6,640 bases of DNA from Paludibacteraceae bacterium (lineage in GTDB: Bacteria; Bacteroidota; Bacteroidia; Bacteroidales; Paludibacteraceae). The translations under genes and the position numbers were made by a program. Shown here piece after piece: positions 1 to 6,640 of this stretch. The number at the start of each line of letters is the position of its first letter. The first letter of the stretch is position 1. The stretch is from NCBI GenBank assembly GCA_017560605.1, contig JAFZEQ010000084.1:1-6640 (forward strand), given 5' to 3'. The notes below the pieces were generated by a model. It saw nothing but the letters and a program-made list of their open reading frames with translations, made no database searches and was not told where the DNA came from.

Positions 1-79
1 ATTCTGCATAAGTTAAATCACTTGTTTCGTACTCATGGACAATACGCATTCTGTCCGTTTTAGTAAATTTGTACTTCAT
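1..79 (-). CDS. Probable IS3-family transposase OrfA, N-terminal fragment (cut by window edge)
   Basis: Read on the minus strand from the ATG at 79, an open frame runs off the window start. It gives 26 residues beginning MKYKFTKTDRMRIVHEYE. A basic start, an R-x-x-I/V-x-E-Y pattern and a following 'S-x-L-T-Y-A-E' are typical of the first helix of the helix-turn-helix in IS3-type OrfA proteins, which bind the transposon ends and are usually joined to an OrfB integrase by frameshifting. Only the first quarter or so of such a protein is visible, so the family call rests on a short resemblance. The frame starts just inside what looks like an IS terminus, which fits a transposase gene. It could instead be another small HTH protein. 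Confidence 0.5.
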   Translation of the reverse strand, partial: MKYKFTKTDRMRIVHEYETSDLTYAE

Positions 80-120
80 AATGACACTTTTTAGTGTCTA
101 CTTATTTCAGGACAAGACAC
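1..120 (-). mobile_element. Probable insertion-sequence end containing the transposase start
   Basis: Between the transposase start (79) and about position 120 the sequence is full of short inverted repeats. GACACT (83-88) pairs with AGTGTC (93-98) across a TTTT loop, and GTGTCT (94-99) pairs with AGACAC (115-120). Read outward to inward on the minus strand, the terminus begins TGTCTTGTCC near 119-120, a plausible terminal inverted repeat. Beyond 120 the character of the sequence changes. The exact boundary, the other end and any target duplication lie outside the window or cannot be seen, so this is a probable call only. Confidence 0.42.
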
Positions 121-178
121 GTATTTAAAAGAATGGAGTACTGATTTTCAGGGAGAACGATTCTTGAAATTAATTTCT

Positions 179-223
179 ACGGACTTTTTCTCCGACTCTT
201 AGATTTGTCCGCAGAAAGTCCGT
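179..223. repeat. 9-bp perfect inverted repeat, stem-loop of unknown role
   Basis: ACGGACTTT at 179-187 is exactly complementary to AAAGTCCGT at 215-223, leaving a 27-nt loop. No T-tract follows on either strand, so it is not a standard intrinsic terminator. It sits between the IS end and the 9-bp array, with no gene within 80 bp except the transposase fragment. It could be a protein-binding site or part of a small RNA; nothing in the sequence decides this. Confidence 0.5.
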
Positions 224-285
224 GGAAAATAGTAACAAGATTGTAAGTTACTTATTATCAATGTTTGCTTACATTTTTTCTTTAA

Positions 286-360
286 AATGAATTTTAAGAA
301 TTTAGGGAATTTAGGGAACTTTTAAAATTCCTCAAATTCCTTAAATTCCCCAAGTTCCCT
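286..360. repeat. Symmetric array of eight 9-bp units (four forward, four inverted)
   Basis: Read on the plus strand, four 9-mers AATGAATTT, TAAGAATTT, AGGGAATTT, AGGGAACTT are followed by a 3-bp centre (TTA, 322-324). Four inverted units follow: AAATTCCTC, AAATTCCTT, AAATTCCCC, AAGTTCCCT. Every unit keeps GAAYTT or its complement, so the block can fold as one long hairpin in several registers. For example, 304-312 pairs with 352-360 and 314-318 with 346-350; AGGGAACTT (313-321) is also an exact complement of 352-360. The period is a multiple of three, but stops and the mirrored layout argue against coding. It might act as a terminator or barrier for the IS side, or as a protein-binding array. 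Confidence 0.75.
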
Positions 361-405
361 GCTATTATTTATAAGTATACTCAATCTTGGTTATACCAGT
401 CTTCT

Positions 406-507
406 CCGTTACCATCCCGTTACTATACCGAAGGGATAAGCATAGGATAAGCAAGGGATATGAATCACATAGTAATCTCATAGTGATAGCATAGTGAAGG
501 TAGCATA
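406..507. repeat. Degenerate tandem array with an 11-bp period
   Basis: Cut every 11 bp from 406, the sequence reads CCGTTACCATC, CCGTTACTATA, CCGAAGGGATA, AGCATAGGATA, AGCAAGGGATA, TGAATCACATA, GTAATCTCATA, GTGATAGCATA. A 14-bp unit ending GCATA (494-507) follows. Seven consecutive units from 417 to 493 end in ATA, and neighbouring units resemble each other most, as expected from stepwise duplication with drift. Further GATAGGG, CTATGGG and GCATAG words continue to about 555, where AACTATG (532-538) is exactly complementary to CATAGTT (550-556). The period is close to one helical turn, so related words fall on one face of the DNA. The array ends about 50-100 bp upstream of the purM promoter; its role is unknown. 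Confidence 0.6.
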
Positions 508-609
508 TAAACCCGTAAGTGATAGGGAGTGAACTATGGGTTATAATAGCATAGTTTGCCACCCTTGAATTACAAATTCAATATAGACTAAAACTTTTCC
601 AATATTCCC

Positions 610-640
610 TTGCGTATTTCAAAAAAAAGTGGTAATTTTG
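610..640 (+). promoter_or_regulatory. purM promoter (Bacteroidota -33/-7 type)
   Basis: TTG at 610-612 and TAATTTTG at 633-640 are separated by 20 bp and match the Bacteroidota sigma-ABfr consensus TTTG-N19-21-TAnnTTTG. The -7 box ends 47 bp before the purM ATG, giving a leader of roughly 40 nt. The leader has no Shine-Dalgarno sequence (AAAACTTTATATATA precedes the ATG), which is normal in this phylum. This placement also shows that the in-frame TTG at 610 is promoter sequence and not a start codon. No purine riboswitch or PurR-type operator could be recognised. Confidence 0.8.
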
Positions 641-687
641 TACCCGAATTTAATTTGCGCAGAGAATTTTCTAAAACTTTATATATA

Positions 688-1713
688 ATGGCACAACATT
701 ATGAGGCAGCCGGCGTGAACCTCGAAGCCGGATACGAAGTAGTAAGTCGTATTAAATCACACGTGAAAAGTACCAACCGCTTTGGCTCAATGGGCAATAT
801 CGGTTCTTTTGGTGGAATGTTTGACCTCTCAGCACTCAACATCAAAGAGCCTGTCCTCGTGAGCGGAACAGACGGTGTAGGTACCAAGCTTAAATTGGCT
901 TTCGCAATGGACAAGCACGATACGATCGGTATCGACGCTGTAGCGATGTGCGTAAACGATGTATTGGCACAAGGTGCTGAACCACTTATCTTCCTCGATT
1001 ATGTGGCTATTGGTCATAATATCCCAGAGAAAGTAGAAGCTATCGTAGCAGGTGTGGCAGAAGGTTGTCGCCAAGCAGGTTGCGCACTTGTTGGTGGTGA
1101 GACTGCCGAGATGCCAGGTATGTACGGCGATGGCGAATACGATATCGCAGGTTACACTACAGGTGTAGTAGAGAAATCTCAACTCATCGACGGTAGCAAA
1201 GTGGCTGTAGGCGATGTACTCGTAGGTATCTCTTCTTCAGGTGTACACTCTAATGGTTTCAGCCTCGTGCGCAAAGTGGTGAGCGATGCTGGTCTTGACT
1301 TGCACACCGTATATCCAGAACTTAGCGCTGACAAGAAGCTTGGCGAGGTGCTTTTGACTCCAACTCGTATCTACGTAAAGCAAGTGCTTGAGGTAATCAA
1401 AGAGTGCGACGTACATGGTGTAGCACACATCACAGGTGGCGGTTTTGATGAGAATATCCCACGTATCTTGAAAGAAGGTCAAGGCTTCAGCGTGAAAGAG
1501 GGTTCTTGGGAGATTCTTCCAGTATTCCAATGCCTTGAGAAGTGGGGTGGTGTACCTCACCGCGAGATGTTCAATATCTTCAACATGGGTATTGGTATGG
1601 TGATCGCTATGCCAGAGGCAGACGCAGAGAAAGCTATCGCTATCCTCGCTAAGCACGGCGACAAAGCGCAAGTAATCGGCTCTGTTATTGAAGGAAATAA
1701 TGAAATAATTTAA
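688..1713 (+). CDS. purM: Phosphoribosylformylglycinamidine cyclo-ligase (AIR synthetase)
   Basis: PurM closes the imidazole ring: FGAM + ATP gives AIR + ADP + Pi, the fifth step of cytoplasmic de novo purine synthesis. The 341-residue protein matches the usual 340-350. The N-terminal ATP-binding half carries GTDGVGTK (60-67), [20 protein letters not shown] (81-100) and [11 protein letters not shown] (136-146). The C-terminal AIRS half carries [14 protein letters not shown] (180-193) and [14 protein letters not shown] (247-260). The ATG at 688 is chosen because the longer in-frame TTG start lies in the promoter and because [16 protein letters not shown] is the normal family beginning. The protein resembles the standard short Firmicutes/proteobacterial form more than the longer (about 390-residue) PurM I associate with Bacteroides, which hints at transfer or an alternative lineage. 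The last two bases of its TAA stop are also the first two of the repeat copy that follows. It probably once formed a unit with purH downstream. Confidence 0.97.
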
Positions 1714-1839
1714 GCTCCTGCTCGCAGTAAAACTGCTCACGAAATCTAAGTAAATCTTATTTCAAAGCAGCTGATTTTATTGCATTCGCTCCTCATTTCG
1801 CCTTGAGCGAAACTCGTGCGCTGATCTTCAGTAAATGCA
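1712..1839 (+). repeat. Structured intergenic repeat, copy 1 (full, plus orientation)
   Basis: This is the first of three full copies of one element with the order hairpin I - box 2 - box 3 - hairpin II - box 4. Hairpin I is GCAGT/ACTGC (1724-1728, 1732-1736) with an AAA loop, inside AAGCTCCTGCTC...CTGCTCACG. Box 2 (1741-1764) contains AAATCT twice. Box 3 is TTTTATTGCATTCGCTC (1775-1791). Hairpin II is TTTCGC/GCGAAA (1796-1801, 1807-1812). Box 4 is CGCTGATCTTCAGTAAATG (1819-1837) followed by CA. Over its first 53 bp it is 48/53 identical to copy 2. It begins in the purM stop codon. The 85 bp between this copy and copy 2 are A/T-rich and hold no recognisable gene. Confidence 0.85.
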
Positions 1840-1924
1840 TCGGCAAACATTTTAAACGTACAAAAATAAGGGGCTAATTTAGTAAATACTTTGGTAAATA
1901 TTTGATTTATTGGATTGATAGAGC

Positions 1925-2061
1925 AAGCTCCTGCTCGCAGCATAGCTGCTCACGAAATCTAAATAAATCTTACTTCATAGTATGCCGTTTTTATTGCCAG
2001 CGCTCCGCTCGTTGGTGCTCAATCACCACCAACTACGCTATCGCTGAATTTTAAGTAAATG
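1925..2061 (+). repeat. Structured intergenic repeat, copy 2 (full, plus orientation)
   Basis: Same layout as copy 1. Hairpin I is GCAGC/GCTGC (1937-1941, 1945-1949) with an ATA loop. Relative to copy 1 its closing pair has changed from T-A to C-G, both bases together. Box 2 occupies 1954-1977. Box 3 is TTTTATTGCCAGCGCTC (1989-2005). Hairpin II is GTTGGTG/CACCAAC (2011-2017, 2027-2033), unlike copy 1 in sequence but at the same place. Box 4 is CGCTGAATTTTAAGTAAATG (2042-2061). It is oriented like copy 1 and is followed directly by the partial copy. It has no reading frame of its own. Confidence 0.85.
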
Positions 2062-2076
2062 AAGCAACTATTGACT

Positions 2077-2117
2077 CGGAATGTTTACATCCGCATTCGC
2101 TGAATCTTCAGTAAATG
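2077..2117 (+). repeat. Structured intergenic repeat, partial copy (3' part only)
   Basis: Only the second hairpin and box 4 are present. CGG-A-ATG (2077-2083) pairs with CAT-CCG (2088-2093) around a TTTA loop with one bulged A. CGCTGAATCTTCAGTAAATG (2098-2117) matches box 4 of copy 1 except for one inserted A. It lies just upstream of the GxxExxY gene, and the ATG at 2081 falls inside it, so that ATG is unlikely to be a real start. It may be a remnant of a truncated copy or a tail duplication of copy 2. Confidence 0.65.
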
Positions 2118-2182
2118 TGGCGGTAAGCAACAGAGGAATTGGATTGAAAAGATTTCTAGCAAGGGAGAATAAAAATACAAAT

Positions 2183-2566
2183 ATGACTATCCACGAACTA
2201 TCATATCAAATACGCGGAGCGGCGATGGAGGTATATAATGCCTTTGGGCCAGGGTTGTTGGAGTCTATCTATCATCAAGCGTTAGTATATGAACTACAAG
2301 AGCGTGGACTACGAGTACAATCTGAAGTTCCAGTTGAGGTTGTCTATAAAGGAAACTTATTAGATAAATCGTTACGATTAGATATACTCGTTGAAGGTCA
2401 AGTAATAATTGAACTAAAATCAGTAGAAGAATTATTGCCGATTCACTACAAACAACTAAAATCCTATCTACGATTGTGTAAGAAGGAACAAGGTTGGTTG
2501 ATTAATTTTGGAGCATATGACTTTACTGAAGGTTTACGCTCGGTAAAAATCGAACTAAAAGAATAA
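2183..2566 (+). CDS. GxxExxY-type small PD-(D/E)XK nuclease-fold protein
   Basis: The 127-residue product carries the signature GLLESIY (24-30, G-x-x-E-x-x-Y) that names this family. It continues with a predicted PD-(D/E)XK core: D67 in LRLDIL, E77 and K79 in IIELKS, and a QLKSYL segment (91-96), ending in the usual GWLINFG strand (104-110). Family members are short, of unknown biological role, and often multicopy. The ATG at 2183 is preferred: it gives the usual family length, AAGGGAG (2161-2167) lies 15 nt upstream, and the in-frame ATG at 2081 would translate repeat sequence. No signal peptide or membrane segment is visible, so it is probably cytoplasmic. Codon use (ATA, CGA, TTA-rich) differs from purM and purH (ATC, CGT/CGC, CTT/CTC), suggesting a separate origin. 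Repeat copies lie on both sides, and the right one starts 5 bp after its stop. Nuclease activity is inferred from motifs only. Confidence 0.85.
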   Translation: MTIHELSYQIRGAAMEVYNAFGPGLLESIYHQALVYELQERGLRVQSEVPVEVVYKGNLLDKSLRLDILVEGQVIIELKSVEELLPIHYKQLKSYLRLCKKEQGWLINFGAYDFTEGLRSVKIELKE

Positions 2567-2570
2567 TCAT

Positions 2571-2690
2571 TGCATTTACCGAAGATCAGTGATGAGTTTT
2601 GGATGTTCCCAAAACGAAGAGCGAAGGCAATAAAACTATTTACTTTGTAATAAGATTTACATAAGATTTCTGCCCAACAGGGCAAGGAGG
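2571..2690 (-). repeat. Structured intergenic repeat, copy 3 (full, inverted)
   Basis: On the minus strand this has the same layout as copies 1 and 2. Hairpin I is TGCCC/GGGCA (2671-2675, 2680-2684). Box 2 is degenerate but keeps GTAAATCTTATTACA-like sequence (about 2646-2670). Box 3 is TTTTATTGCCTTCGCTC (complement of 2619-2635). Hairpin II is a perfect 7-bp stem GTTTTGG/CCAAAAC (2596-2602, 2609-2615). Box 4 is CACTGATCTTCGGTAAATG plus CA (complement of 2571-2591). Its box-4 end matches copy 1 at 18 of 19 positions (2571-2589 against 1821-1839). It faces copies 1 and 2 across the GxxExxY gene, and its hairpin-I end forms the leader of purH. Confidence 0.8.
2684..2690 (+). promoter_or_regulatory. 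Shine-Dalgarno-like AAGGAGG upstream of purH
   Basis: AAGGAGG lies directly after the TGCCC-AACA-GGGCA hairpin (2671-2684), sharing its last A, and 17 bp before the purH ATG. This is farther than optimal. It is notable because the other main genes here lack such a site, and because it lies at the outer end of repeat copy 3. A weak -7-like TTACTTTG (2640-2647) lies upstream but lacks a matching -33 box, so a separate purH promoter is not established. Confidence 0.4.
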
Positions 2691-2707
2691 TATAAACAAA
2701 ATAAACT

Positions 2708-4243
2708 ATGGCAAAAAGAGCATTAGTCAGTGTAAGTGACAAAACAGGATTGGTGGATTTCGTGAGCGGCTTGCAAGCTGCTGGATGGGAAATCATCGCC
2801 ACAGGAGGTACACAAAAACTCCTAGAAAATTCAGGTATCAAAACTATCGGTATTAGCGACGTAACTGGTTTCCCAGAGATCTGCGACGGACGCGTTAAAA
2901 CCCTTCACCCCAAAGTTCACGGTGGCCTTCTCGCACGTCGTGACGAGCCTTCTCACCTCCAAGCATTGGAGGAGAACGGTATCTCGTTTATCGACCTTGT
3001 GTGCGTGAACCTCTACCCATTCCGCGAGACTATCGCTAAAGAGGGCGTGAGCATGGCAGACGCTATCGAGAATATCGATATAGGTGGTCCATCTATGCTT
3101 CGTTCAGCAGCTAAGAACTACAACGATGTGACTGTGGTTTGCGATCCTGCAGACTATGACACCATCCTCGCTGAGATCAACGCTACAGGTAACACCACAG
3201 TAGAGACACGTCTTCAACTCTCAGCTAAGGCCTATACCCACACTGCGCAATACGATGCATGCATCGCAACTTACATGCGTGAGAAAGCAGGTCTGAACGA
3301 AAAACTCTTCCTTGAGTTTGACCTCAAACAAGGCCTTCGTTATGGCGAGAACCCTCACCAAAGTGCGAAGTTCTATGCTTCAACCAAAGCTATCCCATTC
3401 TCACTTGCTACTGGCAAACAACTCCAAGGCAAAGAGATGTCTTACAACAATATCCAAGACGCTAACGCTGCCCTAAATATCGCACGCGACTTCGACGAGC
3501 CATTCTGCGTAGCCCTCAAACACATGAATCCATGTGGTGCTGCTGTGGCTGAGACCATTGAGGAAGCATGGCAAAAAGCATACGAAGCAGACACTGTAAG
3601 TATCTATGGTGGTATCGTGATCTGTAATCGCACTATTACTAAGGAGATAGCACTCGGTATGAAACCAATCTTCTTAGAGATCGTGATTGCTCCTGACTTT
3701 ACAGATGAGGCTATGGAGATCTTCGCTACCAAGAAGAACCTCCGCGTGATCCAAGTGGATATGACTAAGACCAACGAGGCTATTGACCAATATGTGAGTG
3801 TGAACGGCGGTTTGCTCGTACAACACCTCGATACTCAAATCGAGACTATTACTCCAGAGATGTGCGCTACCAAGGTGCAAGCTGATGCTGCTACTTTGGC
3901 TGATATGCAATTTGGTTGGAACATCGTTAAGCATGTGAAATCCAATGCTATCGTGGTAGTTAAGAACGGTCAAACACTTGGTGTAGGTGCTGGTCAGATG
4001 AACCGAGTAGGTAGTGCTGAGATCGCTATGAAGCAAGCACATGCCGCTGGTGTGACCGAAGGTCTAATCCTAGCTTCTGATGGCTTCTTGCCATTTGATG
4101 ATACAGTAGCATTGGCTGCTCAATACGGCGTGACCGCTATCGTGCAACCAGGTGGCAGTATCCGCGATAACGACTGCGTGGTGAAAGCTGACGAGTTGGG
4201 CATCTGCATGCTGATGACAGGCACTCGCCACTTCAAGCACTAA
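2708..4243 (+). CDS. purH: Bifunctional AICAR formyltransferase / IMP cyclohydrolase
   Basis: PurH catalyses the last two steps of IMP synthesis: AICAR + 10-formyl-THF gives FAICAR, then ring closure to IMP. The 511-residue protein has normal length. The N-terminal IMP cyclohydrolase (MGS-like) domain spans about 1-195, with ALVSVSDKTGL (5-15), IATGGTQ (30-36), GRVKTLHPKVHGGLLARRD (61-79) and NIDIGGPSMLRSAAKN (122-137). The formyltransferase domain follows, with RYGENPHQ (211-218), the catalytic Lys-His in LKHMNPCG (K271, H272), KHVKSNAIV (408-416), PGGSIRDND (481-489) and the C-terminal GTRHFKH. No catalytic residue appears missing. ATG at 2708 gives the usual start MAKRALVSVSDK. Like PurM here, it reads much like the Firmicutes form and less like what I recall of Bacteroides PurH. 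It is separated from purM by the repeat/GxxExxY cassette and followed by a strong terminator, so it ends its transcription unit. Confidence 0.97.
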   Translation: MAKRALVSVSDKTGLVDFVSGLQAAGWEIIATGGTQKLLENSGIKTIGISDVTGFPEICDGRVKTLHPKVHGGLLARRDEPSHLQALEENGISFIDLVCVNLYPFRETIAKEGVSMADAIENIDIGGPSMLRSAAKNYNDVTVVCDPADYDTILAEINATGNTTVETRLQLSAKAYTHTAQYDACIATYMREKAGLNEKLFLEFDLKQGLRYGENPHQSAKFYASTKAIPFSLATGKQLQGKEMSYNNIQDANAALNIARDFDEPFCVALKHMNPCGAAVAETIEEAWQKAYEADTVSIYGGIVICNRTITKEIALGMKPIFLEIVIAPDFTDEAMEIFATKKNLRVIQVDMTKTNEAIDQYVSVNGGLLVQHLDTQIETITPEMCATKVQADAATLADMQFGWNIVKHVKSNAIVVVKNGQTLGVGAGQMNRVGSAEIAMKQAHAAGVTEGLILASDGFLPFDDTVALAAQYGVTAIVQPGGSIRDNDCVVKADELGICMLMTGTRHFKH

Positions 4244-4245
4244 TC

Positions 4246-4310
4246 TTTAGGATATAAGATGGCTTCGCCTATAGGATGCCGTAGAGCAACTATAGGTTAT
4301 AAGTCCTAAA
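4246..4310 (+). other. Folded 3' region of purH mRNA
   Basis: TTTAGGA-TATAA (4246-4257) is complementary to TTATA-ag-TCCTAAA (4297-4310), 12 pairs with a 2-nt bulge. Inside it, CCTATAG (4268-4274) pairs with CTATAGG (4290-4296), and a small GGC-TTC-GCC hairpin (4261-4269) competes for the first two C's. The block starts two bases after the purH stop and overlaps the first bases of the terminator. It may protect the 3' end, or be another intergenic repeat. Confidence 0.5.
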
Positions 4311-4344
4311 AATCCTCCCATTAAGAATATTGGGGAGGATTTTT
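4308..4344 (+). terminator. Intrinsic terminator after purH
   Basis: AAAAATCCTCCC (4308-4319) is a perfect 12-bp complement of GGGAGGATTTTT (4333-4344), with a 13-nt loop. The stem is followed by ATTCTTTTTCTT, giving a U-rich tail. With A's on one side and T's on the other it could work in both directions, although no convergent gene lies to its right. It separates purH from the GH13 gene. Confidence 0.88.
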
Positions 4345-4354
4345 ATTCTTTTTC

Positions 4355-4385
4355 TTGCTCATGTCAAAAAAAAGCATTACCTTTG
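4355..4385 (+). promoter_or_regulatory. Promoter of the GH13 gene (Bacteroidota type)
   Basis: TTG at 4355-4357 and TACCTTTG at 4378-4385 are spaced by 20 bp and match the Bacteroidota consensus. The -7 box ends 45 bp before the ATG at 4431. It begins just after the purH terminator, so the GH13 gene is transcribed separately from the purine genes. The leader lacks a Shine-Dalgarno sequence. Confidence 0.75.
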
Positions 4386-4430
4386 CTACCAAAAATATCA
4401 CATTCAAACATTTTATAACCCCATTGTGTA

Positions 4431-6128
4431 ATGAAAAAACTATTATTATCGTTGATTCTGTGTTGTGCCTTAAAACCCGTTACTGCGGTAAGTTCCGATT
4501 CTTTTAGTTGGGGCAATGCCACAGTGTATTTTGTTATTACCGATCGTTTTTGTAATGGCGATACAACCAACGATGTGAACTACGGACGCCTTGTTGATTA
4601 CGGTAGTGAGCAGCTGAATGCAGCTACATTTCATGGCGGAGACTTCAAAGGAATGCTACAAAAAGCACAAGAGGGGTATTTCAAGCAATTAGGCGTTGAT
4701 GTGGTTTGGATGACTGATGTGTATGAGCAAATCCACGGGTGGATGCAAGGTAGTGGACCCATCAATGATTTTCCTCATTATGGCTACCATGGCTACTATC
4801 CGTTAGACTATACACAGATCGACAAAAACTACGGCACTGTAGCTGAGTTTCGTGCGTTGGTGGATACCTTGCACGCACAAGGTATACGCGTGATGCTTGG
4901 AGCTAACCTCAATAATCCGGGTTATCCTACATTGCTAGATGCCATACAGCTAGGATTTGCTGAAACCAATCTTAGCGAACAGCAAGCCGTACAGCATATC
5001 CGTCTTTGGGATTACACTCAGTTCTTTGAAGATAGAGCACAATGGAAAGGGTGGTATAATAGCGAATGGATACGTATGCCACATGAAGGCTGGGATGAAT
5101 CGAACCCACTTACAGCAACTCTCTTTGGATTACCAGACTTTAAAGATGAAAGTACAAATACAACTACCATACCTACTTTTCTAAAACGCAAATGGAAGGC
5201 AGAAGCAAAAGCTAACGACCCTTGGGTAAATCCTTCAGCAAGAAAACTGCGCATGGACCACGATTGGTCTCCTTCGCAATACCTCGTCGCATGGATTGCT
5301 GCTTGGGTAGAGGAATTTGGCATTGATGGTTTCCGCTGTGATATTGTAGAGAATGTCCACATTGATAGTTGGAAGATGCTTTATGCTGCTTGTAATCAAG
5401 CACTCAGTAGGTGGCGCTCAGCGCATCCTGACGATCAGGCTTCTACTTGGACAGATGCCTTCTATATGACGGGTGACTATGATTGTGCGTATATCGATTA
5501 TAAAGCAGATTATGCCACTGCTGGCTTTAGTAGTATGGTAAATTTTTATTTTCCTAAGCATGGTGATATGGATGGTATTGTATATACTTGGCAGTCGTAT
5601 GCGGATAGTGTAAATACTTATTCCAATTGGCATCCATTTAACTATCTCAATAATTCCTATCATCGTGACGCAGATATGAATAATATGATCGATTGTGCGA
5701 CTACATTCTTGCTCTCACCTGGCGTTGCTCAGATTTTCTATGGCGACGAAACCGGACGCAAGTTGAGCGACGCACAATATAATGTAGATAGCGATCAGGC
5801 ATTTCGTTCGGATATGAATTGGAATGATATCAATAATGAACAACTCCTCCACTTCCAGAAACTCGGTCAGATTCGCCGTTCTAACCCTGTGATAGGTACG
5901 GGCTACCAGCGTACAATTGATGCGCATACTTGTGTGCGTTACAACGATACAGACTCCTTACTAATCCGTGTGATGCCCAATGAATGGAAACCTATACTAG
6001 TGTCGTCTATCTGGAACGATGGTACTACAGTTCAGGAATTATATACAGGTCAAGTATCTGAAGTAAAGCAAGGCAAAGTCTCCTTCTCTTATTACCAAAA
6101 TCGAATAGCTATACTAAAAGCTCTGTAA
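4431..6128 (+). CDS. Secreted MalS-like GH13 alpha-amylase-family protein, probably catalytically altered
   Basis: This 565-residue protein starts with a signal peptide (1-19: two lysines, a leucine-rich core, cleavage likely after VTA). No proper lipobox is present, so it is probably periplasmic. The rest follows E. coli periplasmic alpha-amylase MalS. Shared motifs include TDRFCNGD (37-44), TFHGGD (66-71), EQIHGW (99-104), DFPHYGYHGYY (113-123), GIDGFRCD (297-304), IFYGDE (435-440) and RSDMNW (459-464), with a C-terminal beta domain at about 490-565. GH13 enzymes cut alpha-glucans. The nucleophile Asp304 is present. However, region I reads LGANLNN (156-162) where DVVMNH is expected, the acid/base Glu of MTGE is Asp349 in MTGDYD, and the region IV HD reads SYHRD (409-413). 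The frame is intact throughout. It may be a starch-binding pseudoenzyme or have a changed specificity. No susC/susD genes are next to it. Confidence 0.88.
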   Translation: MKKLLLSLILCCALKPVTAVSSDSFSWGNATVYFVITDRFCNGDTTNDVNYGRLVDYGSEQLNAATFHGGDFKGMLQKAQEGYFKQLGVDVVWMTDVYEQIHGWMQGSGPINDFPHYGYHGYYPLDYTQIDKNYGTVAEFRALVDTLHAQGIRVMLGANLNNPGYPTLLDAIQLGFAETNLSEQQAVQHIRLWDYTQFFEDRAQWKGWYNSEWIRMPHEGWDESNPLTATLFGLPDFKDESTNTTTIPTFLKRKWKAEAKANDPWVNPSARKLRMDHDWSPSQYLVAWIAAWVEEFGIDGFRCDIVENVHIDSWKMLYAACNQALSRWRSAHPDDQASTWTDAFYMTGDYDCAYIDYKADYATAGFSSMVNFYFPKHGDMDGIVYTWQSYADSVNTYSNWHPFNYLNNSYHRDADMNNMIDCATTFLLSPGVAQIFYGDETGRKLSDAQYNVDSDQAFRSDMNWNDINNEQLLHFQKLGQIRRSNPVIGTGYQRTIDAHTCVRYNDTDSLLIRVMPNEWKPILVSSIWNDGTTVQELYTGQVSEVKQGKVSFSYYQNRIAILKAL

Positions 6129-6223
6129 TATTGCATACAATTTTCACACTTTTGTGTACTAGTACGAATAGATATTAGTATTCTGTCGTTGTTGACAAAT
6201 TTATAGATTTTTTTTGAAAATAC

Positions 6224-6254
6224 TTGCATATTCCAAATAAAAGCAGTAATTTTG
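6224..6254 (+). promoter_or_regulatory. Promoter of the last secreted-protein gene (Bacteroidota type)
   Basis: TTG at 6224-6226 and TAATTTTG at 6247-6254 are 20 bp apart, the same spacing as the purM and GH13 promoters. The -7 box ends 66 bp before the ATG at 6321. The A/T-rich leader has no Shine-Dalgarno sequence. Upstream, between 6129 and 6223, there is a weak ACAC-TTTT-GTGT stem (6146-6157) and a 10-bp palindrome GTACTAGTAC (6156-6165), but no convincing terminator for the GH13 gene. Confidence 0.78.
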
Positions 6255-6320
6255 CGCACAAATAGAAAGCAAAAACGATAATTTATATAATTTACTAACA
6301 TTTTTTTATTATTAGTCTGT

Positions 6321-6640
6321 ATGAAGAAAATATTTACTTTTTTCATAGCGATGGTCGTAACGCTGTCCATGTACGCGGTTATACCTAATACTTTGGGTGA
6401 GAAAGTAGATCCTACGGGACGCGCTACAGAACTTGCTAGCAAGCAACAAGCTCACCGACAACAGATGGCTAAAGCTTTGGGCTTAAACCAAGTAGAGCGC
6501 AAAGTTGCTAAAGCTGCTCTAGAAGCAAACAAAGCTCCTAAAAAAGCACAAAAGGAGGTTATCACCTTGAATTATGACCGCTTTGCTGGCATGGAGTGCG
6601 CAGAAGCGGAACTTGGCGAGTGGTGGATTGGACTCAGTTG
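6321..6640 (+). CDS. Secreted protein of unknown function, N-terminal part (cut by window edge)
   Basis: The frame is open from the ATG at 6321 to the window end (106 complete codons). Residues 1-19 (MKKIFTFFIAMVVTLSMYA) form a clear signal peptide with cleavage after MYA. The next part, about 27-75, is rich in Ala, Lys and Gln (for example KQQAHRQQMAKALGL), probably helical and possibly a linker or coiled coil. It leads into a segment ending AEAELGEWWIGLS that looks like the start of a beta-rich domain. I do not recognise the family. The ATG is supported by its own promoter and by the signal peptide. It is probably periplasmic or at the cell surface; no C-terminal sorting domain can be judged because the end is missing. 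Confidence 0.8.
   Translation, partial: MKKIFTFFIAMVVTLSMYAVIPNTLGEKVDPTGRATELASKQQAHRQQMAKALGLNQVERKVAKAALEANKAPKKAQKEVITLNYDRFAGMECAEAELGEWWIGLS

Follow-up and report, generated by a model that had tools for sequence, protein, structure and literature searches.

Structured intergenic repeats around a GxxExxY gene in Paludibacteraceae: probable arms of small non-autonomous mobile elements

Why does a structured repeat stand on both sides of a small gene between purM and purH? The question is raised by contig JAFZEQ010000084.1 of a Paludibacteraceae bacterium (GCA_017560605.1), of which we analysed positions 1 to 6,640, referred to here as the window; the small gene belongs to the GxxExxY family. 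An earlier note on this DNA had described a repeat with conserved boxes and hairpins of changing sequence, and had read the pattern as selection on folded RNA or single-stranded DNA. Our analysis indicates that the repeat unit is probably the structured arm of small, non-autonomous, intergenic mobile elements of a narrow Bacteroidales clade, resembling miniature inverted-repeat transposable elements (MITEs) and REPINs, the inverted doublets of repetitive extragenic palindromic (REP) sequences. Four observations lead to this reading: the copy number of the unit, the convergent architecture of two arm types (A and B), compensatory changes in the hairpins, and orthologous sites that are occupied in some genomes and unoccupied in others. 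Elements of this kind are known; the multi-hairpin arms, the pairing of A with B and the bracketed nuclease gene are new.

The unit is about 100-145 nt long and is composed, in this order, of CTCC, hairpin I, two AAATCTTA boxes, a middle section, ATTGCCACCGCT, hairpin II and GCTGAATCTTA. In the aligned copies, CTCC-N and hairpin I are followed by GAAATCTNA-TAAATCTTA, the middle section and then ATTGCCACCGCT, hairpin II and GCTGAATCTTA. A pattern scan of GTDB genomes yielded 25 loci. Fifteen are true copies, all on Paludibacteraceae contigs from seven metagenome-assembled genomes (MAGs) that are designated Paludibacteraceae bacterium and come from the ruminant gut. The other ten, outside the Paludibacteraceae, have the two boxes only, with the remaining unit missing by eye, and were dropped. 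With a profile model of sequence only (R1), at least 39, 18, 20, 12, 29, 2 and 37 matches were obtained in the seven MAGs, lower bounds with 150 candidates scored per genome; a Porphyromonas MAG, the eighth genome of the same search, gave no match among its 150 scored candidates. Further copies in related genomes, the check that the earlier note had named, do therefore exist. Under stricter filters a match was obtained in 5 of 41 genus-level and 5 of 150 family-level genomes, sets that include some of the MAGs already known to bear units. A weak family match in genome G127 does not resemble the unit and looks like chance. An iterated search of the fetched regions collected 164 non-identical matches, a set that takes in orthologues and some partial copies. 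No unit matches were found in phages or plasmids at blastn sensitivity, and for two pattern matches in IMG/VR the remainder of the unit was not shown. The unit is thus multicopy but restricted to a narrow clade of ruminant-gut Paludibacteraceae, and, as in MITEs, its numerous intergenic copies occupy non-orthologous sites.

The earlier note did not recognise the repeat as a named family, and it does not appear to carry a name. Rfam covariance models did not match the units of the window (the sole match in the window, at 4304-4388 with E 0.95, lies outside them) or a doublet from a relative. The titles and abstract beginnings of open-licence literature on GxxExxY, PF13366, REP/RAYT, BOX/RUP/SPRITE, MITEs, intergenic repeats and S23/IVS (intervening sequences) do not name it either.

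Of 31 neighbouring unit pairs with a spacing of 30-70 nt, 29 are convergent (binomial p about 1e-15, three orthologous pairs included). With the three orthologous pairs of loci counted once, about 26 of 28 independent cases are convergent. Such doublets are inverted, as in REPINs, and their convergent arms form terminal inverted repeats, as in MITEs. Two types of tail were defined after inspection of the sequences, A (ATG-Y-R-GCGGTA) and B (GACTCTGATT). Both tails could be typed in 22 of the 32 doublet rows, and all 22 combine A with B (20 of 20 when two orthologous pairs are counted once), in one orientation 14 times and in the opposite one 8 times; the other 10 rows contain an untyped tail. 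When a looser A pattern was applied to single units, 48 were A, 3 were B and 50 stayed untyped. Since every typed doublet pairs A with B, we regard these doublets as one composite element with two different ends. The composite measures 277-368 bp in 22 of 27 doublet rows and consists of convergent A and B arms, a centre of mostly 31-64 nt and ends that mostly read TA(T/G)CTCC.

In the window, the three full copies and the one partial copy of the earlier description were recovered, with nhmmer scores in agreement (94.0, 78.8 and 86.0 bits for the full copies, 17.8 bits for the partial one, from a profile built partly from those same copies). They are arranged as follows:

1712-1839, plus strand: copy 1, a full unit, with the hairpin I core at 1724-1736 and hairpin II at 1796-1812
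1925-2061, plus strand: copy 2, a full unit with a tail that is B-type by eye, with the hairpin I core at 1937-1949 and hairpin II at 2011-2033
2062-2095, plus strand: B-type tail and doublet centre leading to the start of an inverse A arm, assigned by eye from intact doublets (loci L068 and L070) and typed tails
2096-2130, plus strand: partial copy, the 3' end and A-type tail of a plus-oriented unit
2571-2693, minus strand: copy 3, a full unit between the GxxExxY gene and purH, with hairpin I at 2670-2685 and hairpin II at 2596-2615

The CTCC of copy 1 begins one base past the purM stop codon, and its tail (AGTAAATGCATCGGCAAACATTT) is A-type by eye. The rest of the inverse A arm begun within 2062-2095 is missing. 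The partial 3' copy of the earlier note falls at about 2087-2117, and the inverted copy 3 has its end within the leader of purH. The conserved boxes are present in the copies, with small differences in the 3' box, which is CGCTGATCTTCAGTAAATG, CGCTGAATTTTAAGTAAATG and CACTGATCTTCGGTAAATG in copies 1, 2 and 3, respectively. The arms of hairpin II are TTTCGC/GCGAAA, GTTGGTG/CACCAAC and, on the minus strand, GTTTTGG/CCAAAAC, as had been reported.

By themselves, the three window copies fold modestly better than shuffled sequences (z of -2.27, -1.42 and -1.95, with 5, 18 and 9 of 200 shuffles folding equally well), and the real support comes from the wider family. For the hairpin counts, 120 of the 164 units could be cut at the boxes, while 44 that lacked a recognisable 5' end or box were left out. 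Hairpin I has a Watson-Crick stem of at least 5 bp in 35 of 64 distinct sequences, compared to at most 20 in 200 swaps of the 3' halves. For hairpin II, a stem of at least 5 bp is formed in 62 of 92 distinct copies and in at most 27 with the 3' halves swapped. A small middle hairpin around CTCCG is present in 88 of the 120 units. In its 83 distinct forms, the pair beside C-TCC-G is T-A (30), A-T (38) or G-C (14), thus complementary in 82, with a maximum of 51 in 1000 shuffles; the next pair out is T-A in 72 and C-G in 9 (81 of 83, shuffled maximum 77), and at the two positions beyond these pairing is not above chance. Compensatory change in the hairpins is clear and well above the shuffles, although relatedness among copies remains in these controls, which shuffle or swap the 3' partners. 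The claim that pairing is kept while the hairpin sequence changes accordingly holds in the wider family. RNAalifold on a MAFFT alignment returned almost no structure, perhaps because the variable hairpins were misaligned, and was replaced by the segment-by-segment tests.

On the unit strand, the stems of the hairpin test contain 11 A-C mismatches versus 1 G-T, and 9 of the 11 come from a single hairpin II subfamily. Predicted folding energies are lower for the reverse strand in all 120 units, and the z-scores of the two strands are alike (-1.08 and -0.99). Since the z-scores are alike and the mismatch bias is mainly that of one subfamily, no folding strand is claimed, and the data do not tell RNA and single-stranded DNA apart. 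As regards the proposed selection on folded RNA or single-stranded DNA, the part on pairing is borne out, but the proposal was incomplete because it overlooked that the units are often arms of larger elements. The compensatory change in this dispersed repeat is clear, and the recognition of a multi-hairpin end could be studied on its A/B architecture.

Three plus three of 12 prepared sites were queried for unoccupied counterparts. One doublet lies between two genes in genomes G003 and G004, while G007 has 2 nt between the same genes. Another stands beside argH-like genes in G003 and G002, and the matching junction of G001 is without it. A third site is filled in G002 and unfilled in five aligned relatives, with a spacer too diverged for exact borders. 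Single units at three more junctions are present in some genomes and missing in others; at one of these, G005 and G007 retain only the outer hairpin, next to a start codon. The DNA of purM and purH in the window is 82-90% identical to that of the unit-bearing MAGs. In G160 the gap between the two genes is 15 nt, with neither a unit nor a GxxExxY gene, and in G145 it holds an open reading frame (ORF) of 365 aa (L231:365-1462) where the window has the GxxExxY composite. Because this other ORF occupies the gap in G145, insertion at the junction has apparently happened on two or more occasions. Near-identical units (97-99% over 105-125 nt) occur at different loci of one genome in G001 and in G007, and two doublets 12 kb apart match at 91.6% over 299 nt. 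Such similarity suggests recent spread.

We infer that the elements spread via an enzyme acting in trans, which would recognise both the folded, single-stranded arms and the repeated AATCTTA boxes. The hairpins would then be kept because an arm that does not fold would not move. Several points weigh against the mobile-element reading. No transposase gene was recognised by eye in the 30 largest clusters of genes neighbouring the units, and a Y1 transposase match was found in two of the seven genomes only, over the cut-off in G005 and under it in G003. Half of the single units (50 of 101) could not be typed by tail. Most borders are blurred because the unoccupied sites match at 69-86% identity. 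Target-site duplications show no excess (mean 2.6 versus 2.2 in shuffles, with a shuffled maximum of 3.0, for 32 element rows), and no excision or movement was observed in the comparison of genome sequences.

The most interesting candidate for the mobiliser is the GxxExxY protein itself, whose co-occurrence with the units does not extend to all genomes. Its gene is placed between purM and purH, with repeats flanking it on both sides. The genes of the window are:

688-1713: purM
2183-2566, plus strand: GxxExxY gene, 127 aa, PD-(D/E)XK nuclease superfamily, assigned from PF13366, TIGR04256, the motif and an AlphaFold2 model
2708-4243: purH
4431-6128: alpha-amylase-family gene

The protein matches PF13366 with E 1.7e-40 and TIGR04256 with E 3e-40 (137.2 bits, cut-off 35), and G24-x2-E27-x2-Y30 is invariant in 57 aligned sequences, as expected for a GxxExxY family member. 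A catalytic motif D67-x9-E77-x-K79 is predicted; all 57 aligned homologues have E77 and K79, and nearly all have D67. The AlphaFold2 model has a pLDDT of 95.9. Its closest fold is SSO0001 (4ic1; TM 0.59, E 0.013), which we take to be a Cas4, followed by lambda exonuclease, and no match reaches E 0.001. The PADLOC Cas4 profile gives E 0.0049, and a sequence search of solved structures did not match the protein (best E 0.96). GxxExxY is matched in 29 of 60 Bacteroidales genomes; the passage on it in PMC8934634 gives no function.

Might the nuclease be the engine? The gene with two inverted arms would then be an autonomous element and the gene-less doublets its deletion derivatives, with a Cas4-like nuclease cutting at or near folded arms or empty sites and repair copying the arms. 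We consider this possible but unlikely. In its favour, convergent unit pairs 300-600 nt apart enclose a GxxExxY gene in six of six rows (two independent loci), the whole purM-purH composite is absent in G160, and the invariant E77 and K79 and the SSO0001-like fold fit a nuclease. Elsewhere in the Bacteroidales, 13 of 36 GxxExxY genes are flanked on each side, at a distance of up to 120 nt, by inverted repeats scoring 30 bits or more; the other ORFs at these loci show this in 2 of 110 cases (Fisher p 1.3e-7), and both positive controls share a flank with a GxxExxY gene. The inverted-repeat score at 11 of 20 GxxExxY loci exceeds 99% of 380 cross-locus pairs. However, the 36 genes are unevenly drawn, 20 regions being from three gene-rich genomes, and repeats of either orientation abound in the flanks, with the best direct repeat outscoring the best inverted one at 11 of 20 loci. 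The motifs of these flanks vary by genome (CACAGAG-, CACAAATT- and CACGAATT-like). Within the unit-bearing MAGs, the 500 nt around 11 of 17 GxxExxY matches are free of units, and for 8 of these 11 so is the whole fetched locus; the remaining 6 matches are confined to two loci. By eye, the purM-purH arms look like A/A. No type could be given to those of the second locus, and the gene of G001 is not enclosed by the arms. Moreover, G003, an incomplete MAG like the others, has at least 20 unit matches and no GxxExxY match.

The excess of flanking inverted repeats provides a testable idea of what the GxxExxY gene does. In its broadest form, GxxExxY nucleases would be widespread minimal mobile elements of Bacteroidales, Cas4-like proteins of about 125 aa within lineage-specific inverted repeats, with the A/B doublets as non-autonomous offspring. 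We regard this generalisation as doubtful; if true, mobility would depend on a nuclease that recognises folded single-stranded ends and not on a DDE or HUH transposase. GxxExxY may instead be one of several passengers, because four-helix-bundle genes (L295-L324, TIGR02436, matched in 42 of 60 Bacteroidales genomes) show a similar, weaker association, with inverted repeats flanking 8 of 26 versus 2 of 52 controls. This comparison is conservative, since one of the two positive controls (L313) is itself a four-helix-bundle gene and the other shares a flank with one. The two kinds of gene may thus be alternative passengers of one class of element. A small four-helix-bundle ORF bracketed by complementary ends is also found in the intervening sequences of 23S rRNA, which the four-helix-bundle genes of Bacteroidales resemble in their flanking inverted repeats. 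The present case differs from these in its intergenic site, in GxxExxY as the ORF and in multi-hairpin units as the arms.

Short repeats were also noted by eye at the outer flanks of doublets in G001 (L058, L060 and L062), often degenerate CACGGAT-like or TTTTAAGAG-like. By eye, they resemble the repeats that adjoin the GxxExxY genes of other Bacteroidales.

A functional RNA or 5' leader, either cis-regulatory or a small RNA whose copies are kept to tune translation of the neighbour, appears improbable. Read on the reverse strand, AGGAG comes after hairpin I, with a start codon next in some copies, and at one site in G005 and G007 it is just this outer hairpin with AGGAG that survives. For 70 of 149 mapped 5' ends, an ORF has its ATG at most 45 nt or its stop codon at most 60 nt away (26% of random positions); counting start codons alone, the number is 35 (17% of random positions). 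Such proximity, however, is expected from any intergenic insertion, and with a weak excess near starts only, the reverse-strand AGGAG was rejected as a Shine-Dalgarno signal. Beyond orthologues and GxxExxY no neighbour family dominates, though two small protein families recur, each at five unit-bearing loci (L074, L101, L107, L122, L151, and L063). In addition, copies in doublets face both ways, presence is patchy between relatives, and Rfam gave no match. Mobility is the better frame than a host RNA function because the unit is often the arm of a composite and brackets the GxxExxY gene in the window.

Least of all do we expect a REPIN/RAYT system with REP doublets moved by a Y1 (HUH) REP-associated transposase (RAYT): extragenic inverted doublets foldable as single strands do define REPINs (PMC3116915), and the Y1-type ORF of G003 lies about 0.5 kb from a unit, but a RAYT as general mobiliser is unsupported, as five of the seven genomes, including the two richest in units (at least 39 and at least 37), lack a Y1 match, incomplete as the MAGs are, and the arms, with their length, several hairpins and CTCC start, are not the 20-40-bp palindromes with GTAG or CGTC tags described for REP sequences (PMC3733652). 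The Y1-type (MPDHVHILL) protein of G005 and G003 is divergent, has 326-339 aa and adjoins a 376-aa ORF (L095:1306-2325, L096:829-1809).

The preferred reading, mobile elements with structured arms, can be compared with several known systems. Like REPINs (PMC3116915), the present elements are repeated in extragenic space, form inverted doublets around a short centre, can fold as single strands and are presumed to be mobilised in trans. Their arms are several times longer, contain up to three hairpins and conserved unpaired boxes, and are asymmetric (A/B). BOX, RUP and SPRITE of Streptococcus pneumoniae are likewise small interspersed structured repeats with slow insertion, abundant in a single species but almost missing from most of its relatives, and have been read as parasitic elements that may act in RNA (PMC3049150). 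By description only, they differ in that the abstract of PMC3049150 mentions neither A/B convergent doublets nor a bracketed nuclease gene. The BrickBuilt MITE of Porphyromonas gingivalis, with 19 copies in one strain, is also intergenic, species-restricted and from Bacteroidales, and has small inverted-repeat ends (PMC4596501). According to its description, BrickBuilt is a 23-nt tandem minisatellite with leader and tail, whereas the present family has changing hairpins.

A second type of element was noted in which inverted repeats like GGGAACTATATACATGTTGACACTT surround single units, for example in G007 (L100:2679-2920, L101, L105 and L107). Single A arms occur in addition to doublets, some within such an element. 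Repeats of this type, about 20-25 nt long, were found at one or both ends of 26 of 100 single units and at both ends of 14, and a GGGAACTATATACATGTTGACACTT-like motif has 41 matches in G007 compared to none for the reversed control. Among the matches listed, which come from fragmented assemblies, there was no pair 1-3 kb apart that could enclose a transposase. By eye, the same ends also flank hairpin-rich inserts without a unit (L101, L103).

Elsewhere in the window, an imperfect 26-nt inverted repeat lies upstream of purM (162-240). Downstream of purH (4307-4345), a perfect 13-bp inverted repeat, one arm of which is T-rich, resembles a terminator.

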